Shown: positions 24,973 through 38,038, counted from the stretch's first letter. The stretch: 41,210 bases of DNA from Verrucomicrobiota bacterium (GCA_012517065.1 JAAYVR010000092.1:1-41210); one strand, 5' to 3'. The notes: generated from the sequence alone by a model not told the origin. Program-made: numbers and translations.

Positions 24973-26397
24973 CTATTTTGGATCGGGCGGTGTCAATCTG
25001 ACAATTGCGCCGTTCCGCACGATTCCCATTGCCACGTTTGTCCGGGTGTTTTGGCCCGTGCCATCAAATTGGATTGTCCCGGCAACTCCCTGCCAGGGGG
25101 ACAATTTCGCGAGCGCTTCGCGGACGCGGGCACGGTTTGGGCCGCCGGATTGAATTGCAGCTATTAGCAATCGCGTGGCGTCGTAAGTGAGCGCCGCTGC
25201 ATGATCCGGGGCGTGCCCTCGAGCCATGGTGAATTCGCGGATGAAACCCGCGGTTGCCGGGTTTTCGGGATCGGGTACAAAAAGTATTGGCACGTGCACT
25301 CCCTCTGCGTGAGTGCCAGCGAGGGCAAGAAATCGTGCACGCGCCATCGCATGCGTTCCAAAAATGAGGCAACGCAGCTCGCCGTCATCTTCTGCTGTTT
25401 CGGAGCAAGATTTTTTGGGGTTCGGGATCGCCCGGCGCAGCGCGCTGGTATCATGGCACAGGCATTCTCGTGCGGCTTGGAGCAAGCGTGCCGAATCCTC
25501 CGGAGCGGCCACGATAAGCAGAATGATGTGACCGGACTGTCCCAAACTTTGCTCGAGAGGGGCGATTCGTTCGAGGTACGACTCCATGCCGGGCGGCAGT
25601 TCGAGTCTGTAATCGGGAAGGCGCCCGCGCAGTGAGAACTGTTTCATCACTTCACGCGCGGTCATTCGCGATTCGTGGTCGGTGCAACTGAGCATTACGA
25701 TCGATCGGGCGGTTTTGTGTTCGGTCCGGTTCGAAGTCGAGGATTGCAGCGCCCGGAACACATGATCTACGAGCACACGCGCGATTGCGTCGTCCGAGGG
25801 CGCACACGCAAACGTCCATGAAACCCCGGCGAGTGTTACGGACTTGTCGGTTGCGATTGGACTGACGAGGGGCAACTGCGCCTTGGCCACGACTTGTTCG
25901 GCGAGGTGGGTCGAAGCGGAATCGACCGAGCCCAAGAGAGCGATTGGGTGTTCTTCATAGACCATTCGGGCGAGAAGCGACACGCCGGTACCCCATGGAT
26001 TGGTTGCCCATCTTGGAACCAGTCGGAAAGGCAGGGAGGAAGACTCGGCATTGCCTTGTGGGACCGGCTTTGAAATCTCGGAGTTCGCCTTGTCAATGGC
26101 GAACCTTGCGGCCCACCACAAATCGCCGGTGAGCGGATCGTCAAGGTTTGTTGGGCCAAACCATCCGATTTTGTATTCGGTGGAATTGGTGATGTTGGCG
26201 GAGGGACCCGGGTACTCCAAAGTTGAATCGCGCAGCCGCATGTAAGGTGGGGGTTGTGCGGCATCGAGGTTTGGCCACAGGGTTGACATCAACCAGACCA
26301 TGGCCGCGGCGAGCCCGTGCGGCACTACGATGGCTGCCGTGTCCCGGTGGGCTTTGGTGCGGGTATCGCGGCACTGCGTTGACGGGAATTGGTTCAT
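24973..26397 (-). CDS. Periplasmic binding protein, type-1 fold (orphan), second copy
   Basis: A 474-residue protein with an atypical signal region (AAAMVWLMSTLWPNLDAAQ) and a type-1 periplasmic-binding fold of the branched-chain amino acid/amide type: YKIGWFGPTN, AARFAIDKANSE, PIALLGSVDSASTHLAEQVVAKAQLPLVSP, YDATRLLIAAIQSGG. Near its N-terminus it has LEYPGPS before the KIGxxGP block, similar to MEYTGPG in the protein at 27104, so the two are probably paralogues. Relatives usually deliver substrates to ABC permeases; no permease or ATPase gene is in the window. It is the last gene of the redox operon, 27 bases after the C_GCAxxG gene. The ligand is unknown. Confidence 0.85.
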   Translation of the reverse strand: MNQFPSTQCRDTRTKAHRDTAAIVVPHGLAAAMVWLMSTLWPNLDAAQPPPYMRLRDSTLEYPGPSANITNSTEYKIGWFGPTNLDDPLTGDLWWAARFAIDKANSEISKPVPQGNAESSSLPFRLVPRWATNPWGTGVSLLARMVYEEHPIALLGSVDSASTHLAEQVVAKAQLPLVSPIATDKSVTLAGVSWTFACAPSDDAIARVLVDHVFRALQSSTSNRTEHKTARSIVMLSCTDHESRMTAREVMKQFSLRGRLPDYRLELPPGMESYLERIAPLEQSLGQSGHIILLIVAAPEDSARLLQAARECLCHDTSALRRAIPNPKKSCSETAEDDGELRCLIFGTHAMARARFLALAGTHAEGVHVPILFVPDPENPATAGFIREFTMARGHAPDHAAALTYDATRLLIAAIQSGGPNRARVREALAKLSPWQGVAGTIQFDGTGQNTRTNVAMGIVRNGAIVRLTPPDPK

Positions 26398-26424
26398 CGG
26401 TTGGAACCTGGTTTGCGAGCCGGT

Positions 26425-27096
26425 TCAACCTCTGTCGAGAATAATTCCTGCGGCGATTCTCACGGCTTTTCGGACAACTCCGCCGCATTTTTCGGTCGGG
26501 TTGGCGGCCTGGAATTGTCCCAGGTCGGCGGGATCAGCCAGATTATACCTTTTGCCAAAGAGTCGTTCGACAATGTCCCCGCACATTGTGCTTCGCATTT
26601 CCTTGACGAACTGATCACAAAACTTGCGAGATGGGACGAGGCATGCGCGCCAGCCGGCCCAGTCGTCCAGGCGTTCCCGCCCGAACACAAGGCCCATGGC
26701 AAGCAAGCAGCCGGTAACCGCGCCACAAGTTTCGCCTCGTTCGGCGATTCCGGGCACGGCTGTCAACGCTTTGACGAACGAAGGATCGGCGAGGCCAAAA
26801 ACCTCATTCAGAGAAATGAAGCTCGTCTGCGCGCAGTTGTGGCATAACCGCATGTAGTACTCGGCCTTGTTATCGACCAACTCGAGCACTTCGTCTCGGG
26901 ATCGACCTTCGGCGAGTGGCGCGGGCTTGGGCGGGGCCGGAGTTGGTACGGGTGTGATTTCGGATTTGAGATTCTCCGTTTTCTTGCCTGCATTGCATCC
27001 CGAGAGTGCAATGGCTGCGGCCGGAACAAACGTCGTACTTAGAAAGTCACGGCGGGTAACAGACTCAGGCTTCTTGTGACGTCGGTGGTATTTCAA
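26425..27096 (-). CDS. Tat-lipoprotein of the C_GCAxxG_C_C family
   Basis: A 223-residue protein when started at TTG 27096, which has AGGTGA eight bases upstream and lies 7 bases after the previous stop. The N-terminus has Arg-Arg at 15-16 in VTRRDFLSTTF and a lipobox LSGC with C34, indicating twin-arginine export and lipid anchoring. A Pro-rich linker (about 48-60) precedes the domain with cysteines at 85, 88, 124, 130, 152, 160, 172 and 204; GETCGAVTGCLLAMG is the family signature. The family is thought to be redox-active but its chemistry is not established. It sits between two binding-protein genes. The frame stays open upstream to 27309, overlapping the preceding gene; I consider that extension false. 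Confidence 0.85.
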   Translation of the reverse strand: MKYHRRHKKPESVTRRDFLSTTFVPAAAIALSGCNAGKKTENLKSEITPVPTPAPPKPAPLAEGRSRDEVLELVDNKAEYYMRLCHNCAQTSFISLNEVFGLADPSFVKALTAVPGIAERGETCGAVTGCLLAMGLVFGRERLDDWAGWRACLVPSRKFCDQFVKEMRSTMCGDIVERLFGKRYNLADPADLGQFQAANPTEKCGGVVRKAVRIAAGIILDRG

Positions 27097-27103
27097 GGCG
27101 ATT

Positions 27104-28588
27104 TCACCTGATGCTGGCCTGTTCGCGTTCAACGCGTGGTCTTTCGATGACCGGCCCGGATGGAATGCCCATGTCTTCCCTCGAGTAATACTTCCATCTG
27201 CCGTTTTCGTATCGTGCGAGGAAGACCTCACCTGCGTCGTCGAGGGCTGCGCTGAGAGGGATATCGCCGGTAACACCCGGGAACGGATCTGGGCGATGCG
27301 CGAGGACATCGCGGATTTTAGCGCGGTTCAGACCGGCGGTTTGGATAGCCCAAATGAGCATGTTCATTCCGTCGTAGGCGTGGGAGGCGTAAGTGTCGGG
27401 TTCGACGCCCCAGCGTTTCTTGAAAGCCTCTCTGAACGCATCGAGTTTCGGGTCTTTGCGATCAGGGTTCCACGGGTACCCGCAAACGACGCCTTCGGCA
27501 TTGGGCCCTGCGATCTTGAGAAACTCGTCTGACACGGCGCGGTCGCAAAAGACGACCGGCTGTTTCATGCCACGGGCGCGGATTTGGTTCAGGGCGTGGG
27601 CGGCGTCTTCGCCGTCTCCCCAATACACAATTGCATCCGGGTCGGCTGCTTGGATGCGGTCGAGCTGCATTGTGAAGTCCCTTGAACCGACCTTGTGCGC
27701 CATTTCGACCACGATGGGGCGCCCCAACCTTCTGGCGCTATCGCGGATTTCGCGAACACCGAATCGGCCGTATCGGTTGCTGGACCTAAGGATTGCGACG
27801 CGGTGGCAATTCAGTTTGCGGAAGAGGTAATCAACCAGTATGTAGTTCTGCTGGCGGTCGTCTCCTATGCAACGAAAAACCCATGGAATGTTGGTCTCGA
27901 TATAAGTCGGATCAAGATCACCGGCAGTGAGCATTGGCAGTTCGGCTTTGAGTGCCACTCTGATGGCGATGTGTGTGTTTGCGCCGTCGATGGTGCCGAG
28001 TATGGCCCACACATGTTCCTTGTAAGCCATGTCAATGATCTCGTTGCCCGAAGCGCCCCATAGACCATTGTCATTGCGGACCACAAGTTCGAACGGGACT
28101 CGCCTTTTCAAATACCCGCCCTTGGCATTGGCCTCTTCGATGGCAAGCCGGCACCCGCGCAGCATCGCGATACCAAGATTCTCCTCGTGGCTTTTGCCGC
28201 CAGTTGCGACGGAGACGGTCGGCATGATAGGGCCGAGGAATCCGATCTTGACGGTATCAACGTGTTCGGGCTCCGGGATTGCCCGGCCAGGCCCCGTGTA
28301 TTCCATTTGCGCGAGAAAGTGCTCTTTGAATGGCTTGACCGCTCCGAAAGGTTCGACGTCTGCGGCTGATCGGGCGTAATTCTTGTTCGTCATCAGCGGC
28401 AGTGGCGGGACATGGTAAGCGTCAACGTCAATCAATTTCAGGATTTCCGCCACTGAAAGCGTTTGCTGCGGACCACTACCATCATGGGTTGCAGTGTCAC
28501 CTGCGATGCCAATCAAGCCCGACACAACACAGGCCACTGTCAGGCAGCCGATCTGCCGCCACGGGCGATACTCCAAGGTTCTTTTCAT
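27104..28588 (-). CDS. Periplasmic binding protein, type-1 fold (orphan), first copy
   Basis: A 494-residue exported protein (N-terminal hydrophobic segment GCLTVACVVSGLIGIAG). An extra ~80-residue region rich in Pro precedes the binding fold, which starts at VKIGFLGPIMP and continues with GCRLAIEEANAKGGYLKRRV, VWAILGTIDGANTHIAIRVAL, VAILRSSNRYGRFG, DAIVYWGDGEDAAHALNQIRARG and ASHAYDGMNMLIWAIQTAG. These are the hallmarks of the branched-chain amino acid/amide binding family. ATG 28588 is preferred over TTG 28594. It is encoded between the Reg_prop propeller gene (59 bases upstream) and the C_GCAxxG gene. No transporter partner is encoded nearby, so sensing, delivery to a periplasmic enzyme or a distant permease are all possible. 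Confidence 0.9.
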   Translation of the reverse strand: MKRTLEYRPWRQIGCLTVACVVSGLIGIAGDTATHDGSGPQQTLSVAEILKLIDVDAYHVPPLPLMTNKNYARSAADVEPFGAVKPFKEHFLAQMEYTGPGRAIPEPEHVDTVKIGFLGPIMPTVSVATGGKSHEENLGIAMLRGCRLAIEEANAKGGYLKRRVPFELVVRNDNGLWGASGNEIIDMAYKEHVWAILGTIDGANTHIAIRVALKAELPMLTAGDLDPTYIETNIPWVFRCIGDDRQQNYILVDYLFRKLNCHRVAILRSSNRYGRFGVREIRDSARRLGRPIVVEMAHKVGSRDFTMQLDRIQAADPDAIVYWGDGEDAAHALNQIRARGMKQPVVFCDRAVSDEFLKIAGPNAEGVVCGYPWNPDRKDPKLDAFREAFKKRWGVEPDTYASHAYDGMNMLIWAIQTAGLNRAKIRDVLAHRPDPFPGVTGDIPLSAALDDAGEVFLARYENGRWKYYSREDMGIPSGPVIERPRVEREQASIR

Positions 28589-28647
28589 AGGCAACTGCTG
28601 TGCTTAGGGTTGAGTGTCAAAAGGGAAATCTCATATTTAGGGCCAAT

Positions 28648-29841
28648 TCACGGGCGTGAACCTGAACCTGCAGTTTGTGTGTCCAAAGGCCTCAGACGAG
28701 GGTAATACCCTTCGCCGATTGCTCTTGCCAAACCTTTCGAGGTGCCGACCCACACATCATTGCCATCAAACTCGGCCCAAAGAACGTAATTGTGCGGGAC
28801 TCCTTGTTTGAACCGCAGCGTCTTGAGAATCTTGCCGGCGCGGCGAACCTCTGCAATGCCCTCGTGAGTGTCCGGGTCCATTGTGTAAACGACCCATGTA
28901 TCAGTCTCGAAATCTACAATGGCACCAATGCCCTTATCTGTGCAATACCAACATTCGTGAGCGCTCCTGCCGCGAGCGGCATTGTTAAAGTCGCTTGGAG
29001 TTCCGCCTTCTTGGGCGAAAAAGCCGCGCCAGTTTCGCCCGTCGTAACGGCACGCACCGAAGTAGGTCGAAACCCAAAGGGTCTTGTCCACGTATGAAAC
29101 CCCGGTGGTGATCACATGCACCACGCCGTCGTCACGATAAAGCTCGATTTCCATTTCGCCGTCAGGATCGAGGTAATGCTTCCAGCGTTCGGTAGCCAAA
29201 TCGAACTCGAGGATTCCGCTGCCCCAGACCGAGAGGAAAACCTTGCCATCCCTTGCGCTCACGCCGTAATTCCAGATTTCCTCCATGGGCGCATTTTGTT
29301 CGGTGTAAATGTTCCACTTGTCTTTGACGACGTTGTATCTGCTGGCGCCTGCGGTGGTGGCACACCAAACCTCATCGCCTATGACTGCCACGCCGTACAC
29401 GACGTCGTTGACCAGTCCGCTGTTGAGCTGATGATAGTGGTCGAACCGGCCGGCACTGAATCGGGCCAAGCCGCCTCCGAACAACGCCAGCCACACATCG
29501 CCGGTCTTAGGGTCAACATCAATGCCCGAAACGACGCGCCATGGCAGGCCATCCTTTTCTTTCCATGAACTGATTTTTCTGGTTTTTTTGTTGTAGCATG
29601 CAAGTCCGTCTTCGGTGCCGATCCACACGCAATCGCGAGTCGGATCAGCCTTGATGGCAAAGATGTGGTCGTTGGGCAGGCCATCTTTTGTGGTTATTTG
29701 CTCCCACTTGGTATAGACGTAGGGGAGGCCGGGCTCCCCATCAGTCGGGGCGCTGTCGGCGGCAGACAATGGCAGGGCAGGAAGCGCCGTGAATGCAACC
29801 AACAACGCTTGAACGGGCAGCAGTTTCGGTTTTGTTGGCAT
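28648..29841 (-). CDS. Secreted Reg_prop (two-component regulator propeller) protein
   Basis: A 397-residue protein with a signal peptide (LLPVQALLVAFTALPALPLSA). The mature part consists of repeats of the type DGLPNDHIFAIKAD ... VWIGTEDGLACYN and DVWLALFGGGLARFS, DEVWCATTAGASRYN, VWVGTSKGLARA, i.e. Reg_prop blades that normally form the sensor of hybrid two-component kinases. Here no kinase, membrane helix or DNA-binding part follows, so it is a free periplasmic propeller. AAGGATGA lies just upstream of ATG 29841. It lies 25 bases after the decahaem gene. Binding of a ligand, or a structural role in a redox complex, are the open options. Confidence 0.85.
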   Translation of the reverse strand: MPTKPKLLPVQALLVAFTALPALPLSAADSAPTDGEPGLPYVYTKWEQITTKDGLPNDHIFAIKADPTRDCVWIGTEDGLACYNKKTRKISSWKEKDGLPWRVVSGIDVDPKTGDVWLALFGGGLARFSAGRFDHYHQLNSGLVNDVVYGVAVIGDEVWCATTAGASRYNVVKDKWNIYTEQNAPMEEIWNYGVSARDGKVFLSVWGSGILEFDLATERWKHYLDPDGEMEIELYRDDGVVHVITTGVSYVDKTLWVSTYFGACRYDGRNWRGFFAQEGGTPSDFNNAARGRSAHECWYCTDKGIGAIVDFETDTWVVYTMDPDTHEGIAEVRRAGKILKTLRFKQGVPHNYVLWAEFDGNDVWVGTSKGLARAIGEGYYPRLRPLDTQTAGSGSRP

Positions 29842-29866
29842 AGGTCATCCTTGTTGTGGTTTGGAG

Positions 29867-32737
29867 CTACAGGGTCTTGAGGTACTCGATCAAATCGTTC
29901 AACTGATCTTTTGTCATGTCGTTTGTGACGCCGTGCTCGTCGTACGGATTATATTTAGTCCAAATCTCCTCGAGAGTCCATGCAATGCCGTTGTGCAGAT
30001 AAGGTGCGGAATCGTAGATATTGAGCAGTTGCGGCGAATCGAATTTCCCGTCGCGGTCGTAGGGGAACTTTGTGCCGACGTTGTGAATTCTGCCGTCGGT
30101 GTAGAGGGGGGGCGGGTGACACGTTACGCAACGGTTGTTGACCGGGATTGGTGAGCCATCGTTCTTGTGCGTGCGTTCGAATATCTCTTTGCCGCGGCGT
30201 TGAGCTTCAGTGAGGTCTTCGCCGAGTTTGCGGTAGCGATTTGGCGGCCTGGGGATTGTGCAGAGATAATAATGCAGATCGTCCAGTTGCTCTGATGTGA
30301 ACGGTTGAATGCGGGTGATGAAGACCGCCAGACGCGGTCCGCATTGCCGCCGAAGGCTGGGGTTGATCCCGATCCATTTGTAGGGCGCCATGTCGTTGAT
30401 TCCGCGGAGAGTGCGGTTGTCAATCGGCCCCATGCCGATGCCATCGTCTTCGATGTCGTAAACGATGTTGTCGATGTGGCCGTCGGGGTGGCAGGTGCTG
30501 CATGAGAACTGGCGCCTGAACGTGATGCTGGCGTTGTGGAAGAGCTTTTCGCCACGGCGCCGTTTGGTGAGTTCCTTGGCGCCGCCGAGATCGATTCGGC
30601 GAACAGCTTCGAGCTTTGCAAGGTCGATGGTGGTGACCGAGTCGTCAAGCATGCTTGCGACGTAGGCTGTTGAACCGTCTTTCGACACAGCAATGCCGCG
30701 CGGACAGGCTGGTACATCGATGCTTTTCACAAAGAACACGGACGATTTGCCGAGGTGATTTGGGACGACGTGCTTACGTTCGTACGCCGAGCTCGAGCGG
30801 AGCATTTCGACAAGTTTCTCGAGGTCAACGACACCCACGCGGTCAGTGCTGCTGCTGGTGACAAGGGCGTACTTGCCGTCCGGGGTGATGGCGACATCGC
30901 AAGGGTCGGGGAAATAAAGGTTGTTTTGGTCGAGGAGCACTTGGTCTGCGGTTCCGTCGCGCCAGATGATGCCGATGCCGTTGGTAATGGTCCAACCGCG
31001 GTTGATGCGGGTCATGGGCACGAGGTTCTTTGTCCTGAGCAGCGTGATGATGGCGTACTCGCCGCTCGGATGCCATGCAACGCCCTGGAGAAGATTGGCT
31101 GCGGGCAATACAATGCGATCGTTGACAACGGCCCTTTTCACGTCGATCACCGTCACCTCGGACATGCTGGGTGTTCGGTCCGGGACAAAACGCGACAGCG
31201 CGTGCGTTACGAGCATCAGTTCGCCGTCCGGGGAGATTGCGAGTGACCATGGCGATCTACTTGCCGAAAGCCGTTTGATTTCGCGGAGAGTTTCGATGTC
31301 AATGACCGAGATGCTGTCAATTGACGTGTTCAAGACATAGAGAACCTTCCCTTGTGGGTCCACCATTACGCCGTGCGGTTCATCCCCAACCTCGATTGTT
31401 GATATCACTTTTTGCGAAGCCACATCGATCACTGACACAGAATCGTCCAGCCGATTGGAAACAAACGCTTTTCGTCCGTCGGGGGTGAAACAGACATCGT
31501 TTGGCTGACCGCCGACAGCGATCTCGGCGACTTTGGATTGTGTGGCCGTATCAACGATTGCCACTGAGGCCGAAGCCTCGCAGGCGACCCAAAGCTGCTT
31601 GCCGTCCGGGGTCAGACAGAGATTCAAAGGGTTCTTGTACGTTGGTTCTTCGGCCACATCAGCTTTGGCTGGTTTCGTCGGGTGCGCAATCTTCTCGACC
31701 TCCTTGTCATAATCAAAGTCGCCGCTGCCCTGTCCCTGGTGGCATTGCAGGCAGACTTTTCTGTCAACAGCCCAGAGACCGTTTTGGCGGGCGGCAGCCT
31801 TGTCTCGCATTATTGCCTCAGATGAGTACTCACTGCCAGGGCCATGACATGCCTCGCACTGGACACCATCGCGCACGTCAAACGTGTCCAGCCGCGCCGA
31901 GGCATCCTTGCCTGCTGCGGTACTATGGCACTTGAGGCACTGGTCGGCTTCTTGCGGGTTGCCGATAACACCTTTTTCTTTAGCGATCTGAAGGCCTTTT
32001 GGTGTGCCAAGCGTTGCCCATGCTTCGGCGTGTTTCGACAATCGCCATTTGCTGAACTGGAAGTTGAACATCGGCCCGGTGTGACAAGCCGCACATTTCA
32101 TCACGCCGACGAATTTGAACTGGGAAGTGGCCGTCTCGCTCTTTGCCGAAGGAGAATCGGATTGCGAAGCCTTTGGCGTGGGATGAGCGATTGCTTCCCA
32201 TGCGGCGTCCAGTTTAAAAGGCTGGGTCTTGAGGACAGCTTCGTGGGAACCTTTCGAGCGGTGGCAAATGTAGCAATCATCTTTTGATGGCATCTTGAGT
32301 CCGGCTGCCATGGCTTTCATGCGATCCTGCATTACATCGGCGGTCGCATACTCGCTTCCTGGTCCGTGGCAAGCCTCACATTGCAAGCCGTCTTCGAGAT
32401 GAAACCCCTCGCCTCTTTCCCATTTTTCGGCTTCTGCCGCGGTAGTGTGGCAACCGAGGCACATTTTTGCTTTGTACGGTTCCTCTGTTATACCGCTCAA
32501 TCTGGTGATTTCCTTGCTTTGTGGGAGAGAGAGTGTCGCGTAAGCCTTGGCGTGGGCGCTGAGGTGCCATTTGCTGTATTGGAACCCCATTTGCGGGCCG
32601 TCATGGCATGACCCGCACGCTTTGGACCCGATGTAGATTGGCTCTTTGGCGGGGCCTTCCATTGCGGCAAAGGAGTGTTGCCCTGCCATGATTGAAAGGC
32701 ACATCAGAGCGCAAAACGCAATCGAGCGGCGTTTCAT
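29867..32737 (-). CDS. Decahaem fusion: two tetrahaem c554-like modules, YVTN propeller, MauG-like dihaem module
   Basis: A 956-residue exported protein (signal ends near AFAAM, about residue 25) with ten CxxCH haem sites. Module 1: 41, 93, 120 and 155. Module 2: 215, 267, 294 and 329, with the same spacing and shared text (CEACHGPGSEY twice, HPTP/HPTK at 185/352), so it is an internal duplication of a cytochrome c554-type tetrahaem unit. Residues about 365-715 form a YVTN beta-propeller (TPDGKQLWVA, DSVSVIDVAS, PHGVMVDPQG). Residues about 725-956 resemble dihaem peroxidases/MauG: CSTCH at 746, LRGINDMAPYKWIG, CVTCH at 870, APYLHNGIAWTLEEIW. It overlaps the upstream UnbV gene by 4 bases. Propeller plus dihaem module parallels hydrazine synthase beta and gamma. 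Substrate unknown. Confidence 0.93.
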   Translation of the reverse strand: MKRRSIAFCALMCLSIMAGQHSFAAMEGPAKEPIYIGSKACGSCHDGPQMGFQYSKWHLSAHAKAYATLSLPQSKEITRLSGITEEPYKAKMCLGCHTTAAEAEKWERGEGFHLEDGLQCEACHGPGSEYATADVMQDRMKAMAAGLKMPSKDDCYICHRSKGSHEAVLKTQPFKLDAAWEAIAHPTPKASQSDSPSAKSETATSQFKFVGVMKCAACHTGPMFNFQFSKWRLSKHAEAWATLGTPKGLQIAKEKGVIGNPQEADQCLKCHSTAAGKDASARLDTFDVRDGVQCEACHGPGSEYSSEAIMRDKAAARQNGLWAVDRKVCLQCHQGQGSGDFDYDKEVEKIAHPTKPAKADVAEEPTYKNPLNLCLTPDGKQLWVACEASASVAIVDTATQSKVAEIAVGGQPNDVCFTPDGRKAFVSNRLDDSVSVIDVASQKVISTIEVGDEPHGVMVDPQGKVLYVLNTSIDSISVIDIETLREIKRLSASRSPWSLAISPDGELMLVTHALSRFVPDRTPSMSEVTVIDVKRAVVNDRIVLPAANLLQGVAWHPSGEYAIITLLRTKNLVPMTRINRGWTITNGIGIIWRDGTADQVLLDQNNLYFPDPCDVAITPDGKYALVTSSSTDRVGVVDLEKLVEMLRSSSAYERKHVVPNHLGKSSVFFVKSIDVPACPRGIAVSKDGSTAYVASMLDDSVTTIDLAKLEAVRRIDLGGAKELTKRRRGEKLFHNASITFRRQFSCSTCHPDGHIDNIVYDIEDDGIGMGPIDNRTLRGINDMAPYKWIGINPSLRRQCGPRLAVFITRIQPFTSEQLDDLHYYLCTIPRPPNRYRKLGEDLTEAQRRGKEIFERTHKNDGSPIPVNNRCVTCHPPPLYTDGRIHNVGTKFPYDRDGKFDSPQLLNIYDSAPYLHNGIAWTLEEIWTKYNPYDEHGVTNDMTKDQLNDLIEYLKTL

Positions 32738-34419
32738 TGTTTGCCTTGGGTTATTTTTAGGATTTGGTTGGCTTGGACGTCGTTCAAGACGGTTTTCTGA
32801 CGGTTAGGCCAGACGATTTCGACAAGCTCGGCTTTGGCGGCTTTTCCGAGTCCAAAATTCGGCCTCGGATCGCTGCATGTCAGATAGCCGTTCACGCCTA
32901 TGACTGGCTGGATCATTGTCATGCCGTTGGCCTTGACTGTCACGGTGGCACCGATTGCGATCGCGCCGGTGTCGGCTCGCAATGGCACGACCTTGAGCCA
33001 GTTCAGGCGGTTTCCGCCATCGTTGCGCAGCAGGTGTGGCGGCTCGTTCAACGCGTTTACAAGGATGTCGATGTCACCGTCGTTGTCGAAATCGGCAAAA
33101 GCAGCGCCGCGCCCGACGTGTTTGCTGTCGAAGAAACCTCCTGATTTGCGAGCCATGTCTATGAACCTGTCCTTGCCATTCCAGCGGGCGATTACAGCTT
33201 CTTCGACGTAAAGGTGGTGTGGGTCTCCGTTTGCTATGAAAAGGTCCACATAACCGTCGTTGTCGTAGTCGTTCAGAAGCCCACCCCAACCTGTGTATTG
33301 TCCGCAAAGAAGTGCAACTCCGGACTGAGTTGTTACATCGACGAACACGGCTTTGTTGATTTGCAAAAGGAGGCAACTATAACCCATGTCGGGGACCAGG
33401 AGATCGAGGAGACCGTTGCGATCGAGGTCGGCGACGAACGGGCCCATGCTTGACACGCCTTGGCCGCCTTCGCCGAAGGCTGTGCCTGTTTCGGCGGCCA
33501 TGTCCTTGAATTTGCCGGTGCCGTCGTTGATCCAGAGGTTGTTCGACATGGCATCGTTGGTGACATAGATATCCATATCGCCGTCGCAGTCAATATCGCA
33601 GGCTACTGCGCCCATGCCGCGGCCGGTCGGTTCCCAAAGGCCGACTTCTTTTGTCACGTCAGTGAACGTGCCGTCGCCATTGTTGCGGTAGAGATGATCA
33701 GGCAAGCCGGGGTAGGAAAGCGGCCCTGGGAAATTGTCGGCTTTGTAATAGGCGCCGGTGCGCTGGAACGCGCCCTTGTCGTATTCGAGGTAGTGAACGA
33801 CAAACAGGTCGAGCAATCCGTCGCCGTTGTAGTCGAGCCATGGCGCGGCCAGCGACCAGCCGGGGCTTGTGAGACCGGCTTTCTCGGTCACGTCGGTGAA
33901 CGTGCCGTCGCCGTTGTTGCGGTAGAGAATGCAGCGGCCGTAGTTACAAACGAAAAGGTCGAGGTCACCGTCGTTGTCGTAATCGGCAGCGGAAGCGGCC
34001 ATTCCGTAGCTGTCTTCGTATCCGGCGACGCCGGCTTTGTCGGTGACGTCGGTGAACGTGCCGTTACCGTTGTTGTGGTAGAGTGCGTTTTTGAGTTTGC
34101 CTTTGAGTGATCTGCCGCGGTTGTCATTGACATCCGGGTGCCAGCGGCCGTTGACGAAGTAGATGTCCATGAAACCGTCGTTGTCGTAGTCGAAAACGCA
34201 ACTGCCAGGGCCGGTGGCTTCGACGATGTTGCTCATCTCGAAGTCGCCTAAGCTGTGCTTGAATTTGATGCCTGCGGATTCGGTTATGTCGGTGAACACA
34301 GGCCAGTTGGTGGGTTCGTCACACCTCGGGCTTGAACAAGTCGCGGCCATCGCGATTGTGGCCAGGGTGGTGATCACACGGCGGATTTGGATGTTTGACC
34401 TTGTTGTTGTTTCACGCAT
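32734..34419 (-). CDS. CRTAC1/UnbV-ASPIC family secreted seven-repeat propeller
   Basis: A 561-residue exported protein. Its first hydrophobic stretch (VITTLATIAMAATC) is a probable signal, possibly with a lipobox-like Cys. Seven VCBS/FG-GAP repeats each carry a calcium loop: DYDNDGFMD, DYDNDGDLD, DYNGDGLLD, DIDCDGDMD, DLDRNGLLD, DYDNDGYVD and DFDNDGDID, predicting a seven-bladed propeller. The C-terminal UnbV/ASPIC domain (about 465-561) ends with FGLGKAAKAELVEIVWPNRQ and QILKITQ. No enzymatic residues are evident; proteins of this type are common beside exported cytochromes in this phylum, perhaps as assembly or binding partners. It lies 21 bases downstream of the HzsA-like gene and overlaps the decahaem gene by ATGA. 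Confidence 0.92.
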   Translation of the reverse strand: MRETTTRSNIQIRRVITTLATIAMAATCSSPRCDEPTNWPVFTDITESAGIKFKHSLGDFEMSNIVEATGPGSCVFDYDNDGFMDIYFVNGRWHPDVNDNRGRSLKGKLKNALYHNNGNGTFTDVTDKAGVAGYEDSYGMAASAADYDNDGDLDLFVCNYGRCILYRNNGDGTFTDVTEKAGLTSPGWSLAAPWLDYNGDGLLDLFVVHYLEYDKGAFQRTGAYYKADNFPGPLSYPGLPDHLYRNNGDGTFTDVTKEVGLWEPTGRGMGAVACDIDCDGDMDIYVTNDAMSNNLWINDGTGKFKDMAAETGTAFGEGGQGVSSMGPFVADLDRNGLLDLLVPDMGYSCLLLQINKAVFVDVTTQSGVALLCGQYTGWGGLLNDYDNDGYVDLFIANGDPHHLYVEEAVIARWNGKDRFIDMARKSGGFFDSKHVGRGAAFADFDNDGDIDILVNALNEPPHLLRNDGGNRLNWLKVVPLRADTGAIAIGATVTVKANGMTMIQPVIGVNGYLTCSDPRPNFGLGKAAKAELVEIVWPNRQKTVLNDVQANQILKITQGKQ

Positions 34420-34440
34420 GCGTGGTGCTGTGGTAAGCGG

Positions 34441-36600
34441 TCATTTGTCTTGTGGCACGGCAGGTTTTTCACCATCAGGTCCGCCTGGCATTGCAAAGGC
34501 AGCGCCAAGGTCAATCCACTGGATTATGGTCTGCAATTCCTCAGGGGCGAGGGCGCGTGCTTTTCCCTTGGGCGGCATTTGGGTGACTTTTCTGTCCGGC
34601 CGCTTTTGTCTTTCCGAAGCGTTGTCCCACGGACGGGCAGTGTTCGTGCCGAGCAGTTGCCACACAAGCCAGCTCGTGCGGGCTCGCCCTTGGTCGATGT
34701 ACTTGCCCCTCTTGAGCAACGGGAGAGACTGCTGGTCCGCAGCCTGATTATCTTCAGGGGCCGTCAGGGCAGAGTACGCGCGTTCGAGGTCGGCTTCGGA
34801 AGGTCGTTCGCTCGAAAGCGGGAGAAACAGGGGATTGTTGCGGTTTCCGTGGCAATCGGCGGAGCTGCAGTAATTCATGAAGATTCTGGCTGCGTCGGTG
34901 CGAAAGACAACCGCTCGTCGTTTCTCGGGCGGAAGGGTCAACTCGTTTGAGGGGCGCCTTAGAGCCAGAACATACTCGTTCTCGGGGACAAGTTCTGGGT
35001 CTTCATGGCATCCGATGCAACCGCGTGTTTCCTTGGGCTGGACCCACATCCAACCGCTTGTTGCCAGGGCGAGCCCGTGTTGATCGAGTGTCTGCAGGAT
35101 GATCGGTGTGTTGGCAGGCACCTCGACGTTGAACGATCCGTCGGCCTCAACAGGGGCCTCGCCGATGAGGCGGCGTGGGACCGGAAGTATGCCTTTGTGC
35201 AACGAACGGGAGTCAGACGTGCTTGCCGCTTGAAGAACGCCCTCGATAAACCTCACCCGTTTGATCGAGCCCGGCGTCAGGTGTGGTTGCATCATGTCGT
35301 TTGCAATGTACGAGTTCATCCCATAGAACACGCCGGTTTTTGCCTTTGTATCGACGACGGTAGAGTGGCCGTCGGGGCTCTTGCGCGGTCTGAGTGGGTG
35401 GGCTTGGAGGTCGTCATGGTCCGGGCTGTCAAAGACTCGCCTGCAACTCAATTTATCCGCATCAAAGGCGAAAACGCCTGCGGTGTCTTTGCCGTCTGTG
35501 CTGCGCCTCGATACCAGCAGCACGTTGTCGTGCAGAGGGTATGGATACAGATAGACTTGGGCCGGGTCGTCCGTGAGCTTGCGATAGGTGTAATGGGGGC
35601 GTGATTCGTGGACACAAGCCAGTTGACCTGCCGTGCCCCGGGCCTGCGTGTCAGATTCAACGAAAACCACAAGGCCTTTTGGTGTGGCGCACGGCATGTC
35701 TTTGAACCGCCGGCCGTGTTCTCCGGCGTAAAGCTCAACGTCGGCTCCCTCGATGTGAATGGCAAACAGGCGCACACCATAAACTTCGCCCGGCTCAGTG
35801 GGATGCTGTTCAGCGGCATAGATCAGCCGTCCGTCCCACATTTGAAACGGGCTGAAGTTACTGTTTGGGTTGTAAGTCAGCCGGCGCATTTCCGTACCGT
35901 CCAATTTGATGTTATAGAGACTCGATGAGGCTGGCAGGCCAAGCTCGGTAAGTGTGTTCTCGCGAGCAACATACGCGATGGTGAACCATGGCTGCGGCGA
36001 ATCCAAAGTGAACAGGGTTGAAAGGTAGATGGGATTTCGTGCTTCCTGCCCTTCAGGTGTTATGGGCCGGAGACCTGTGCCATCCACTCCGATCTCATAA
36101 ACCCGCCAGTGCGAATTCACATCCTTCTTCCCCGCGAACAACACCCGTGTGCCGTCAAGCGAAACACCCGGGTCGCAAGCCGAGTGAAACCCCTCGGAGA
36201 GCACACGCGTTTGTCCGTCGGGTGACACAATCACCACGCGCGCTCCGAGAAACGAAGGCTGCAATCCGAACGGTCGATCCAATGCCGCCGTGAGCGGTTC
36301 TTGGCTGTTTGCCCCGTTTGTGGGCGAAACCGGCACTTGCGTCAAGACAAGGGCCGGGATATCGGCGGCGGTAGGTTCAGCCCCGGTTTGAAAGGCGATG
36401 CTGGCGGGTGCAATAATCATGGCCGAAACCAGCGCCGCAGTCGCCAAGACAATCTTACCGGCAAACGAGAATCCAACGCGTCGCGAGCGCACAGAGAAAC
36501 CGGAATATTTCTCGCCGCTGTTGTGCGGGGATTTCTGGCTCGGCGGTTTGTTCCAGTCACCGGGTTTTGTGGCTGGCATGGGTTGGTTCGGGTCTGACAT
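34441..36600 (-). CDS. HzsA-like (hydrazine synthase alpha-related) haem protein
   Basis: A 719-residue protein. A membrane-anchoring or signal helix lies at about 43-68. Residues about 105-420 have propeller-like repeats (SLDGTRVLFAGKKD, YNIKLDGTEMRRLTYNP, WDGRLIYAAEQHP), followed by a middle domain of HZS-alpha type with the haem site CIGCH (528-532). The C-terminal domain has CSSADCHG (578-584), a C-x4-CH site, and a QMPPKGKARALAPEELQ block whose Met675 can be the second haem ligand. Layout matches HZS-alpha (propeller, haem alpha-I, haem alpha-II). The residue four after His532 is Glu, not the Tyr I recall as haem ligand in anammox enzymes, so identical chemistry should not be assumed. 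ATG 36600 follows the RidA gene by 14 bases. Confidence 0.88.
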   Translation of the reverse strand: MSDPNQPMPATKPGDWNKPPSQKSPHNSGEKYSGFSVRSRRVGFSFAGKIVLATAALVSAMIIAPASIAFQTGAEPTAADIPALVLTQVPVSPTNGANSQEPLTAALDRPFGLQPSFLGARVVIVSPDGQTRVLSEGFHSACDPGVSLDGTRVLFAGKKDVNSHWRVYEIGVDGTGLRPITPEGQEARNPIYLSTLFTLDSPQPWFTIAYVARENTLTELGLPASSSLYNIKLDGTEMRRLTYNPNSNFSPFQMWDGRLIYAAEQHPTEPGEVYGVRLFAIHIEGADVELYAGEHGRRFKDMPCATPKGLVVFVESDTQARGTAGQLACVHESRPHYTYRKLTDDPAQVYLYPYPLHDNVLLVSRRSTDGKDTAGVFAFDADKLSCRRVFDSPDHDDLQAHPLRPRKSPDGHSTVVDTKAKTGVFYGMNSYIANDMMQPHLTPGSIKRVRFIEGVLQAASTSDSRSLHKGILPVPRRLIGEAPVEADGSFNVEVPANTPIILQTLDQHGLALATSGWMWVQPKETRGCIGCHEDPELVPENEYVLALRRPSNELTLPPEKRRAVVFRTDAARIFMNYCSSADCHGNRNNPLFLPLSSERPSEADLERAYSALTAPEDNQAADQQSLPLLKRGKYIDQGRARTSWLVWQLLGTNTARPWDNASERQKRPDRKVTQMPPKGKARALAPEELQTIIQWIDLGAAFAMPGGPDGEKPAVPQDK

Positions 36601-36614
36601 GCGATTGTGGATGA

Positions 36615-37241
36615 TCAGTTTCCTTCGCGGTAGATCACGGCCTGAGCTTCGATCTCGACCAACAGGTCGTCCCGGCAAATGCGCGCCTGAACGCCTGTGC
36701 TCGCAGGGTAAGGGTCCAACCCGAGCGCATTGTAAAACTCGGTGCGCACATTGTTGAACTCCGCATAATCCCTTTCAATGTCCCGCAAATAGCACGCCGT
36801 TCGAATCACATCATGCCAACTCGCCCCTTCGCTCGCAAGCAATCTGGTGATGTTTCGAAACGCGCGCCAGCACTGAGCCCGAAAATCGCAAGGGTACAGT
36901 GTCTCCCCCTTGGCTCCCACACTGGCGGTCCCGCTTATGATGAGAAGGGTTATCCCATGAGGAAAATCAAGGCGAAGCCCGCGACTAAAAGCGCTTCCGT
37001 AAGCGCTCGCTTCATTGAGAACTTCAGGCGCACAAATGGCTCGCTTCTTGATCAGCGAGCCGTTCGGACGCGATCCCGACAAAATGGACGGAGGAGCAGG
37101 TCTATCCCCCGGCAGCCCAAGAGCCATGCGCTCTGTTCTCTCGGCTTCGGAGTAAGCAGACCGTTGAGACTGCTTATGCGACAGACGCTTCTGATTGACG
37201 CGACGGTGGTGCGGGATTTTTGATACTCTTTTGATTGTCAT
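36615..37241 (-). CDS. RidA/YjgF family protein with N-terminal extension
   Basis: A 208-residue protein if started at ATG 37241. The RidA-type domain occupies about residues 77-208: ASAYGSAFSRGLRL, LLIISGTASVGAKGET, FRAQCWRAFRNITRLLASEGAS, DVIRTACYLRDIERDYAEFN and STGVQARICRDDLLVEIEAQAVI, including the conserved Arg and Glu of the active cleft. RidA proteins hydrolyse reactive enamine/imine intermediates in the cytoplasm as trimers. The first ~76 residues are basic with no recognised domain and may not be translated. No signal peptide is seen, so it is the only likely cytoplasmic member of the operon, of which it would be the first gene. Confidence 0.82.
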   Translation of the reverse strand: MTIKRVSKIPHHRRVNQKRLSHKQSQRSAYSEAERTERMALGLPGDRPAPPSILSGSRPNGSLIKKRAICAPEVLNEASAYGSAFSRGLRLDFPHGITLLIISGTASVGAKGETLYPCDFRAQCWRAFRNITRLLASEGASWHDVIRTACYLRDIERDYAEFNNVRTEFYNALGLDPYPASTGVQARICRDDLLVEIEAQAVIYREGN

Positions 37242-37632
37242 GCTTGGTGTGTTGGCTATTGGCGTGCCAAAAACCGCTGTTGGGGAATGGCTCGGCGGAT
37301 CTGAAGGGCTGAACCTGAAGCCTCGTTGGAGATTCCAACAAGTCTCGAAACAACAATGACTTGCATCAACGCAACCGCCAATACCATCGGCGGGGCCGAT
37401 TGGCCATGTGTTCGTCGCACAACGCCGGCGATCAGCGCATCGGCGAGCAGTTGCATTATGCTACGGTGGGACGATGATACCGTTGCAAAACGGCAATTCC
37501 GAACATTAACAAACTGTAATGCGGGCATGAGGCCAAAGTTAACAATTCGGGTGTCTGTTCTATGTGGAAAGGCGAATCAGGTATCGCCGGACCAAGAAGA
37601 GAAACAAAAATGACAAAATGTGGAACAAAGTT
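37242..37632. promoter_or_regulatory. Divergent intergenic region, probable promoter of the redox operon
   Basis: About 390 bases separate the first gene of the minus-strand operon from the plus-strand secreted-protein gene, so both promoters should lie here. A perfect dyad GTTGGA-GAT-TCCAAC sits at 37325-37339, 84 bases before the RidA start, and could be an operator or part of a leader hairpin. I cannot fix -35/-10 elements. Small open frames on either strand show no coding features. Confidence 0.4.
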
Positions 37633-37965
37633 ATGAAACGAAGAACAATCGCATGGTTGGTGGCTGTTGGTCTGTTGGTGGGTGGTTCAACTGCGCTTTT
37701 GGCGCAAGGCGGTCCCGGCCCGCACGGGCGCGGATACGGTGGCCCACCGAAGTCTAAACAGGAACGATACGATCGTTGGGCAAACTGCCCGTGGGCAAAA
37801 GACTCCCGCGGAGCCGGCCTGAAAGGGCAAGCCCGCGGTCAACGCGGCCCCGGAGACGCCAAAGGGAAAGCGTACCGACGCGGGTTGCGCGATGGAACCG
37901 GCCCGCGAGCTCAGGGCGGAAACTGCCCTTACGCGCGCCAAACACCTGCAGACAAGCAGCAGTGA
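37633..37965 (+). CDS. Small secreted basic Gly/Arg-rich protein
   Basis: A 110-residue protein with a clear signal peptide (MKRRTIAWLVAVGLLVGG, cleavage after LLAQ) and a mature part of about 85 residues rich in Gly, Arg, Pro and Lys. Two related motifs, NCPWAK and NCPYAR, bracket the basic region, giving two cysteines in similar settings. I do not recognise a family; binding to a polymer, metal or nucleic acid is possible but unsupported. ATG 37633 begins the signal; ATG 37618 (adding five residues) is possible. A strong terminator follows at 38003. Confidence 0.65.
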   Translation: MKRRTIAWLVAVGLLVGGSTALLAQGGPGPHGRGYGGPPKSKQERYDRWANCPWAKDSRGAGLKGQARGQRGPGDAKGKAYRRGLRDGTGPRAQGGNCPYARQTPADKQQ

Positions 37966-38002
37966 TGGATATAGCCCGTTGTTAATCTGAGCAGATGCAA
38001 CG

Positions 38003-38038
38003 TTCGGGTGGCTTTACTGAAGCCACCCGAATTGTTTT
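38003..38038 (+). terminator. Rho-independent terminator
   Basis: A perfect 12-base stem, TTCGGGTGGCTT at 38003-38014 and AAGCCACCCGAA at 38020-38031, with a 5-base loop, is followed by TTGTTTT. It ends the transcript of the small secreted protein and separates it from glnS. Confidence 0.88.

Follow-up and report, generated by a model that had tools for sequence, protein, structure and literature searches.

A hydrazine synthase-related operon with a chorismatase-like gene in a Verrucomicrobiota bacterium

Introduction

To our knowledge, hydrazine synthase (HZS), the signature enzyme of anaerobic ammonium oxidation (anammox), was long held to be without relatives, and the question of how it arose is open. 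Here we describe an operon of eight minus-strand genes at positions 24973-37241 of a 41,210-nucleotide stretch of DNA from a Verrucomicrobiota bacterium (GCA_012517065.1 JAAYVR010000092.1:1-41210; hereafter the window). Two of its products together hold counterparts of the three HZS subunits alpha, beta and gamma, and a third has the Rid fold and resembles chorismatases of the Hyg5 type.

Comparable clusters have been described twice. PMC10732223 (2023) reported hzsA adjoining fused hzsBC-like genes in Phycisphaerae, raised the possibility of new anammox bacteria and also proposed a broader family with other substrates. The main text of PMC12758564 (Hagglund et al. 2025) distinguishes four clades among alpha and beta-gamma homologues whose genes lie together; in clade I a CRTAC1 gene lies between alpha and beta-gamma and eight extra c554 haems are present, and the text notes a pair of binding-protein genes downstream in clusters of this sort. 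Both papers, in their main texts, report relatives of HZS and assign them no function. The original prediction for the window had called its system undescribed, which is incorrect in view of the clusters of 2023 and of the same architecture, binding-protein genes included, in the main text of 2025.

As far as clade I is characterized in that main text (Syntrophobacter fumaroxidans, Thermogutta, Aquisphaera, Opitutus terrae), the window shares with it the order alpha - CRTAC1 FG-GAP - beta-gamma fusion, the two c554 units with 10 haems, the retention of gamma Cys165, the change of gamma His144 to Trp and the loss of the alpha ligands. It differs in also having Reg_prop and C_GCAxxG genes, and would best be filed as a further member of the clade-I kind. 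The likeness to the Phycisphaerae UBA1845 tunnel metagenome-assembled genomes (MAGs) of PMC10732223 lies in an hzsA-like gene directly before fused hzsBC-like genes; six haems are present there, and UnbV and binding proteins were not found there in our analysis. Anammox HZS of Kuenenia (PDB 5C2V) has the same fold, subunit set, blade-6 loop position and gamma Cys165, and beta and gamma are fused in Scalindua as they are here. Compared with the Kuenenia enzyme, the window has the reverse gene order, replaced active-site residues at alpha-I, alpha-II and gamma-I, eight more haems and further operon genes. The main text of PMC12758564 contains no mention of RidA, a Rid- or chorismatase-like gene, chorismate or shikimate. 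The chorismatase-like identity of the Rid gene and the association with 3-deoxy-D-arabino-heptulosonate 7-phosphate (DAHP) synthase described below appear to be new.

Relationship to hydrazine synthase

In phmmer searches of the PDB, HZS alpha is the sole match of the HzsA-like protein (5c2v_A, 9.4e-31). The decahaem protein aligns with 5c2v_B (1.2e-43) collinearly over residues 369-705, nearly the full length of HZS beta, and with HZS gamma (5c2v_C, 2.5e-18). The order beta then gamma is that of the Scalindua-type fusion, and the NCBIfam beta-gamma fusion model NF052342 matches at 1.9e-62. All 26 aligned HzsA relatives match the alpha model, and the beta, gamma and fusion models are each matched by all 17 beta-gamma relatives. 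Foldseek places 5c2v_A first for the AlphaFold model of HzsA (pLDDT 78, pTM 0.81), with an E value of 3.5e-41 and a TM score of 0.67, ahead of TolB as runner-up at 3e-11. For the beta propeller, 5c2v_B ranks first (E 2.3e-30, TM(target) 0.91). Because the haem parts of the beta-gamma model are poor (pLDDT 58), gamma and the c554 units were judged by sequence. Alpha, beta and gamma resemble their HZS counterparts far more than chance would allow, and their homology is near certain; sequence, collinearity and predicted fold point to HZS rather than to other cytochromes or propellers. The proposal that the HZS complex has a relative here outside anammox, with the full set of subunits, a beta-gamma fusion and conserved accessory genes, is supported, the alpha protein and the propeller matching HZS best in the fold searches rather than unrelated families.

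For the active sites, HZS numbering was anchored on the CXXCH motifs and on the residues listed in PMC12758564 and PMC12607021. Haem alpha-I aligns as CIGCHEDPE in place of the CXXCH..SY stretch, so that the proximal ligand Tyr591 is gone, and the stretch of the window HzsA aligned with the distal His772 of alpha-II holds no His. Gamma His144 has become Trp788 (alignments with 5c2v_C and A1), and Asp168, which supplies protons in HZS (PMC12607021), aligns with Leu or Phe. The acidic Mg-coordinating residue of the HZS beta loop is likewise replaced (NLVPMTRINRGWTITN versus NWLPVCEAENGQVFTN, alignment with 5c2v_B). Gamma Cys165 is kept as Cys799, a residue invariant in both groups that A1 samples, the one with 10 haems and the one with 3; by alignment, this is the position of the third thioether to haem gamma-I in HZS. 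Since the HZS active-site residues other than gamma Cys165 are replaced, the operon is not that of a hydrazine synthase. The changes agree with the data on other members in the main text of PMC12758564 and extend them to the window. Scores fall far below the curated NCBI cut-offs, at 150 of 800 bits for alpha and 212 of 1250 bits for beta-gamma. A search of the window's genome for PF13447, the hydroxylamine oxidoreductase/hydrazine dehydrogenase (HAO/HDH) family, gave no match, a weak negative since no control genome matched either.

The Rid-fold gene

The Rid-fold product had been predicted to be a RidA protein, and canonical RidA is refuted. RidA Arg105 is essential for imine hydrolysis and is absent from the window protein; in the short forms of the family the RidA motif PAR reads PAST (or PAAT; alignment A3). 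What the protein has in common with RidA/YjgF imine deaminases is the fold and the Glu120 position. The SG of SGTAS, the C of CRxxLLVE and its E are invariant or nearly so in A3, and counterparts of Hyg5 Gly173, Gly240, Cys327 and the catalytic Glu334 are all found in the window protein, PASTG corresponding to the PAATG glycine of the Hyg5 N-domain. The protein thereby has the CH-II signature glycines of the Hyg5/FkbO chorismatases (PDB 5AG3, 4BPS) in addition to the Cys and Glu. The family profile built from A3, window included, finds 5ag3 (Hyg5) first in the PDB (7e-21), across both Hyg5 domains. Several relatives have a gene of chorismatase length, and some best match the FkbO/Hyg5 model TIGR04444 (up to 3e-18) or PDB 5ag3. 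By its motifs, then, the Rid-fold protein of the window is chorismatase-like, of the Hyg5 type, and not of the imine-deaminase type.

Several observations weigh against this assignment. The window protein reaches 35 bits against the 325-bit cut-off of TIGR04444 and scores better on the general Rid model; its two-domain relatives reach up to 66 bits against the same cut-off. It consists of a single Rid domain, whereas the known chorismatases are two-domain proteins. About 10% of RidA proteins likewise have Ser at the place of Arg105. Chorismatase-length relatives are also found away from hzs-like genes, one of them in the window's own genome, where a second Rid protein of that length (G000:C131; L187 7342-8568) has no hzs-like neighbours on its short contig. 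As to domain number, the short form holds in one domain motifs that chorismatases split between two, and could use them as a homotrimer.

Across 98 genomes of the order, close copies of the short Rid protein (E <1e-50) are present in 12 of the 20 with a near beta-gamma protein and in 1 of the 78 without (Fisher 2e-9; with the window's own family left out, 0.002; relatedness uncorrected). It is only the short type that tracks the operon, because longer, more distant copies also occur alone.

DAHP synthase beside related operons

One scan of GTDB species genomes yielded 80 related loci (numbered with L), and in 12 of them a gene for DAHP synthase, the entry to the shikimate pathway, lies within or adjoining the operon (NF006421, E 2e-136 in L116). 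Its placement varies. It stands between the two binding proteins in L114, L116, L117 and L118, a placement of Bacteroidota, and after them in L126, L127, L129 and L140, with a gap of 4 bp in L127 and L129. It lies between Rid and hzsA in L098, 4 bp before hzsA, and just before hzsA in L138; in L092 and L094 it is divergent and adjoins Rid. If two such genes per 4 Mb genome are assumed, the rough chance of 12 of 80 is ~3e-12 and that of 6 of 80, counting one per independent placement, is ~5e-5, relatedness uncorrected. Weighing against the chorismate reading proposed below are the window operon itself, which is without DAHP synthase, and the 68 of 80 loci with none in the fetched stretch. Elsewhere in the window's genome, the sole TIGR01361 match is under the cut-off.

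Conservation of the gene set

The set of genes is found again across Verrucomicrobiota, Planctomycetota, Acidobacteriota and Bacteroidota, among others (~80 loci; genes called by profile search of all stop-to-stop frames), and the conservation in other phyla that the original prediction looked for is thus present. In a beta-gamma tree (FastTree, midpoint root, long branches flagged), the window falls in a clade of 42 rows, most of them proteins with 6 or 10 haems, within a 7-row Verrucomicrobiota group with support 100; published clade I sequences are not in this tree by name. The same large clade holds the beta-gamma proteins of the Phycisphaerae MAGs of PMC10732223 (L104-L107 and L109, the OFTM MAGs once proposed as new anammox), and a Rid/chorismatase-like gene lies near the L106 and L109 operons.

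Beta-gamma haem number differs between clades (2, 3, 6 or 10). The 3-haem clades of Verrucomicrobiota and Bacteroidota have the order UnbV, HzsA, beta-gamma, Reg_prop, (Rid) and two binding proteins. In the 2-haem clades one protein of ~640-800 aa stands instead of the two binding proteins. Such a single open reading frame (ORF) of 640-800 aa replaces the pair in L126, L129, L138 and L140-L142, with two Peripla_BP_6 stretches in L129, and hints that the binding proteins act as a pair. A more distant 2-haem group has larger HzsA relatives. Outside that group UnbV, Reg_prop and the binding proteins are found in most loci, the Phycisphaerae 6-haem group being without UnbV and binding proteins, and a Reg_prop protein of >330 aa is present in 73 of 81 loci, window included. 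Because gene order differs between clades while the set stays, a shared function is indicated. Apart from the window itself, close relatives alone have a clear C_GCAxxG gene, which was dropped from the core set for this reason. Both binding proteins best match LivJ-type amino-acid binders; in binding protein 1 the LivJ amino-acid pocket motifs are only partly kept, and the ligand is not readable from them.

Clustering of unlabelled ORFs near the operons returned mostly shadow frames of operon genes; the notable exceptions were DAHP synthase and a gene resembling asparagine synthase. The latter (PF00733) neighbours the operon in members of several phyla, often with UnbV genes next to it (L098 18735-20180; L135 14946-16292; ends of L119, L121, L124 and L125). 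Long TPR + FG-GAP + UnbV_ASPIC proteins (~1100-1200 aa) adjoin the operon in L116 (17258-20809), L119 (16117-19725) and Opitutaceae loci. Opitutaceae bacterium EW11 has an HzsA without the haem alpha-II motif (L100 6208-8220) and a beta-gamma protein with six haems. Five Opitutaceae loci (L132, L139, L145, L148, L149) have a conserved 200-280 aa protein after the binding proteins, ~3.5-4 kb after beta-gamma and with a CXXCH-like motif in some, and a MarR-like regulator with a cysteine-rich C-terminus is found near the operon in L109, L112, L128 and L129.

Operon layout

All eight ORFs were confirmed as real and closely spaced, in the order first noted (Table 1). The predicted gaps of 14, 21, -4, 25, 59, 7 and 27 bases fit starts at ATG 36600 for HzsA, ATG 28588 for binding protein 1 and TTG 27096 for the C_GCAxxG protein, and searches with Pfam and NCBIfam, from which domains were named, confirm the predicted identities of the products other than RidA. 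Hydrophobic export-type N-termini (HzsA, UnbV, decahaem and Reg_prop proteins, both binding proteins) and the twin-arginine (Tat)/lipobox sequence of the C_GCAxxG product were read by eye. The beta-gamma protein has 10 CXXCH motifs and the HzsA-like protein one CXXCH (alpha-I) and one CX4CH (alpha-II). Promoter and terminator scans gave results near chance. A strong 14-pair terminator-like hairpin lies at 38002-38032 on the plus strand, directly 3' of a small ORF at 37564-37965. The assembly of the window's genome amounts to 5.26 Mb in 298 contigs; among relatives with names, the nearest are Verrucomicrobia MAGs, one of which bears the label Pedosphaerales.

Table 1. Genes of the operon and their parts, in window coordinates.
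Feature	Position	Strand	Remarks
Rid-fold, Hyg5-type chorismatase-like protein	36615..37241	-	208 aa; no signal peptide seen; PF01042 (Ribonuc_L-PSP); family profile A3 best PDB match Hyg5 5ag3 7e-21
CRDDLLVE motif, counterparts of Hyg5 Cys327 and catalytic Glu334	36654..36677	-	C179, E186 invariant in alignment A3
PASTG motif, counterpart of CH-II glycine in Hyg5 PAATG; at the place of RidA PAR (Arg105)	36693..36707	-	
SGTA motif, counterpart of Hyg5 Gly240	36924..36935	-	G94 invariant in A3
HzsA-like protein: propeller and two haem sites, export-type N-terminus	34441..36600	-	
HZS_alpha middle domain PF18582, including haem alpha-I site CIGCHEDPE	35002..35271	-	E 6.6e-23
Haem alpha-II site CSSADCH (CX4CH)	34849..34869	-	most Planctomycetota relatives: CX2CH
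CRTAC1/UnbV-ASPIC FG-GAP propeller protein, export-type N-terminus	32734..34419	-	FG-GAP/UnbV_ASPIC; kept in most related loci
Decahaem protein: two c554-like tetrahaem units, HZS beta and HZS gamma	29867..32737	-	
Two cytochrome c554-like units, 8 CXXCH	31703..32641	-	PF13435 (Cytochrome_C554 x2); 1bvb c554 match
HZS beta-like seven-bladed propeller with loop NLVPMTRINRGWTITNG	30623..31633	-	5c2v_B residues 14-348; YVTN propeller
HZS gamma-like dihaem module; Cys799 = gamma Cys165, Trp788 replaces gamma His144	29870..30559	-	5c2v_C; invariant columns in A1
Reg_prop propeller protein, export-type N-terminus	28648..29841	-	PF07494
Binding protein 1, Peripla_BP_6, LivJ type, export-type N-terminus	27104..28588	-	
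Tat-type lipoprotein (TRRDFL..LSGC) with C_GCAxxG_C_C domain; outside conserved core	26425..27096	-	
Binding protein 2, Peripla_BP_6, export-type N-terminus	24973..26397	-	

Discussion

We tentatively propose that the operon encodes an exported, periplasmic multihaem oxidoreductase of HZS type that acts on a chorismate-derived compound and not on hydrazine, a reading that could well prove wrong; from the gene neighbourhood we infer the substrate. A predicted complex of alpha and beta-gamma would form on the HZS scaffold and be exported without making hydrazine. The chorismatase-like protein would convert chorismate or a close relative to a small aromatic or cyclohexadiene carboxylate, and this carboxylate, or its product, would reach the periplasm, where the paired LivJ-type proteins may hold or sense it as their putative ligand. 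The complex would oxidize or couple the compound at haem gamma-I, a MauG/CcP-like site with the conserved Trp788. Electrons would then pass from gamma-II to the two c554-like units, a possible electron outlet, and on to periplasmic carriers. The final product may serve as a redox mediator or a cofactor, or be some other metabolite.

The Rid fold can also be read as a sign of amine or amino-acid oxidation, in which the LivJ-type proteins would bind an amine for oxidation by the complex, with imines cleared by the Rid-fold protein; Rid genes of other bacteria do cluster with amine oxidases, and both binding proteins resemble amino-acid binders. We consider this unlikely, given that the arginine for imine hydrolysis is missing family-wide, with PAST for PAR, that the Rid-like protein has no signal peptide and the complex looks exported, and that the association with DAHP synthase is left unexplained. 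On a reading somewhat less likely again, the decahaem protein would be a peroxidase or an extracellular electron-transfer conduit and its HZS resemblance mere shared ancestry. A CCP_MauG match in 12 of the 17 relatives, the eight additional c554-like haems and the shifting haem number would suit such a role; an alpha subunit and a beta loop kept across clades would be needless for a simple conduit or peroxidase, and the remaining gene set is constant while haem number varies. Lower still we rank a MauG-like maturation, in which the gamma haem pair would oxidize residues of a partner, such as the UnbV or Reg_prop propeller, into a protein-derived cofactor. It would give a role to the two propeller proteins that travel with gamma and have none assigned, and gamma is CcP/MauG-like with a conserved Trp; HZS gamma is itself no maturase, and the chorismatase-like and DAHP synthase genes would find no explanation. 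A genuine hydrazine synthase, and so an unrecognised anammox bacterium, as was suggested for the related Phycisphaerae genomes (PMC10732223), is highly improbable despite the three subunits and the retained gamma Cys165, in view of the replaced alpha Tyr591, alpha His772, gamma Asp168, gamma His144 and beta-loop acid, the alpha and beta-gamma scores and, more weakly, the negative HAO/HDH search.

Anammox should not be called from hzs-like genes, as the Phycisphaerae genomes proposed as anammox carry members of another family. The recurring chorismatase-like and DAHP synthase genes supply a definite hypothesis for the substrate, one open to testing in the cultured bacteria Maribacter arenosus and Lutibacter citreus. 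A wider suggestion, which we put forward with considerable doubt, is that the HZS scaffold predates anammox. On this view a widespread family of periplasmic enzymes, producing or transforming some derivative of chorismate (a redox mediator, a cofactor or an aromatic that contains N), would have given rise to HZS as its anammox branch; the family would be supplied by a Hyg5-like chorismatase of its own and, in certain hosts, by its own DAHP synthase.

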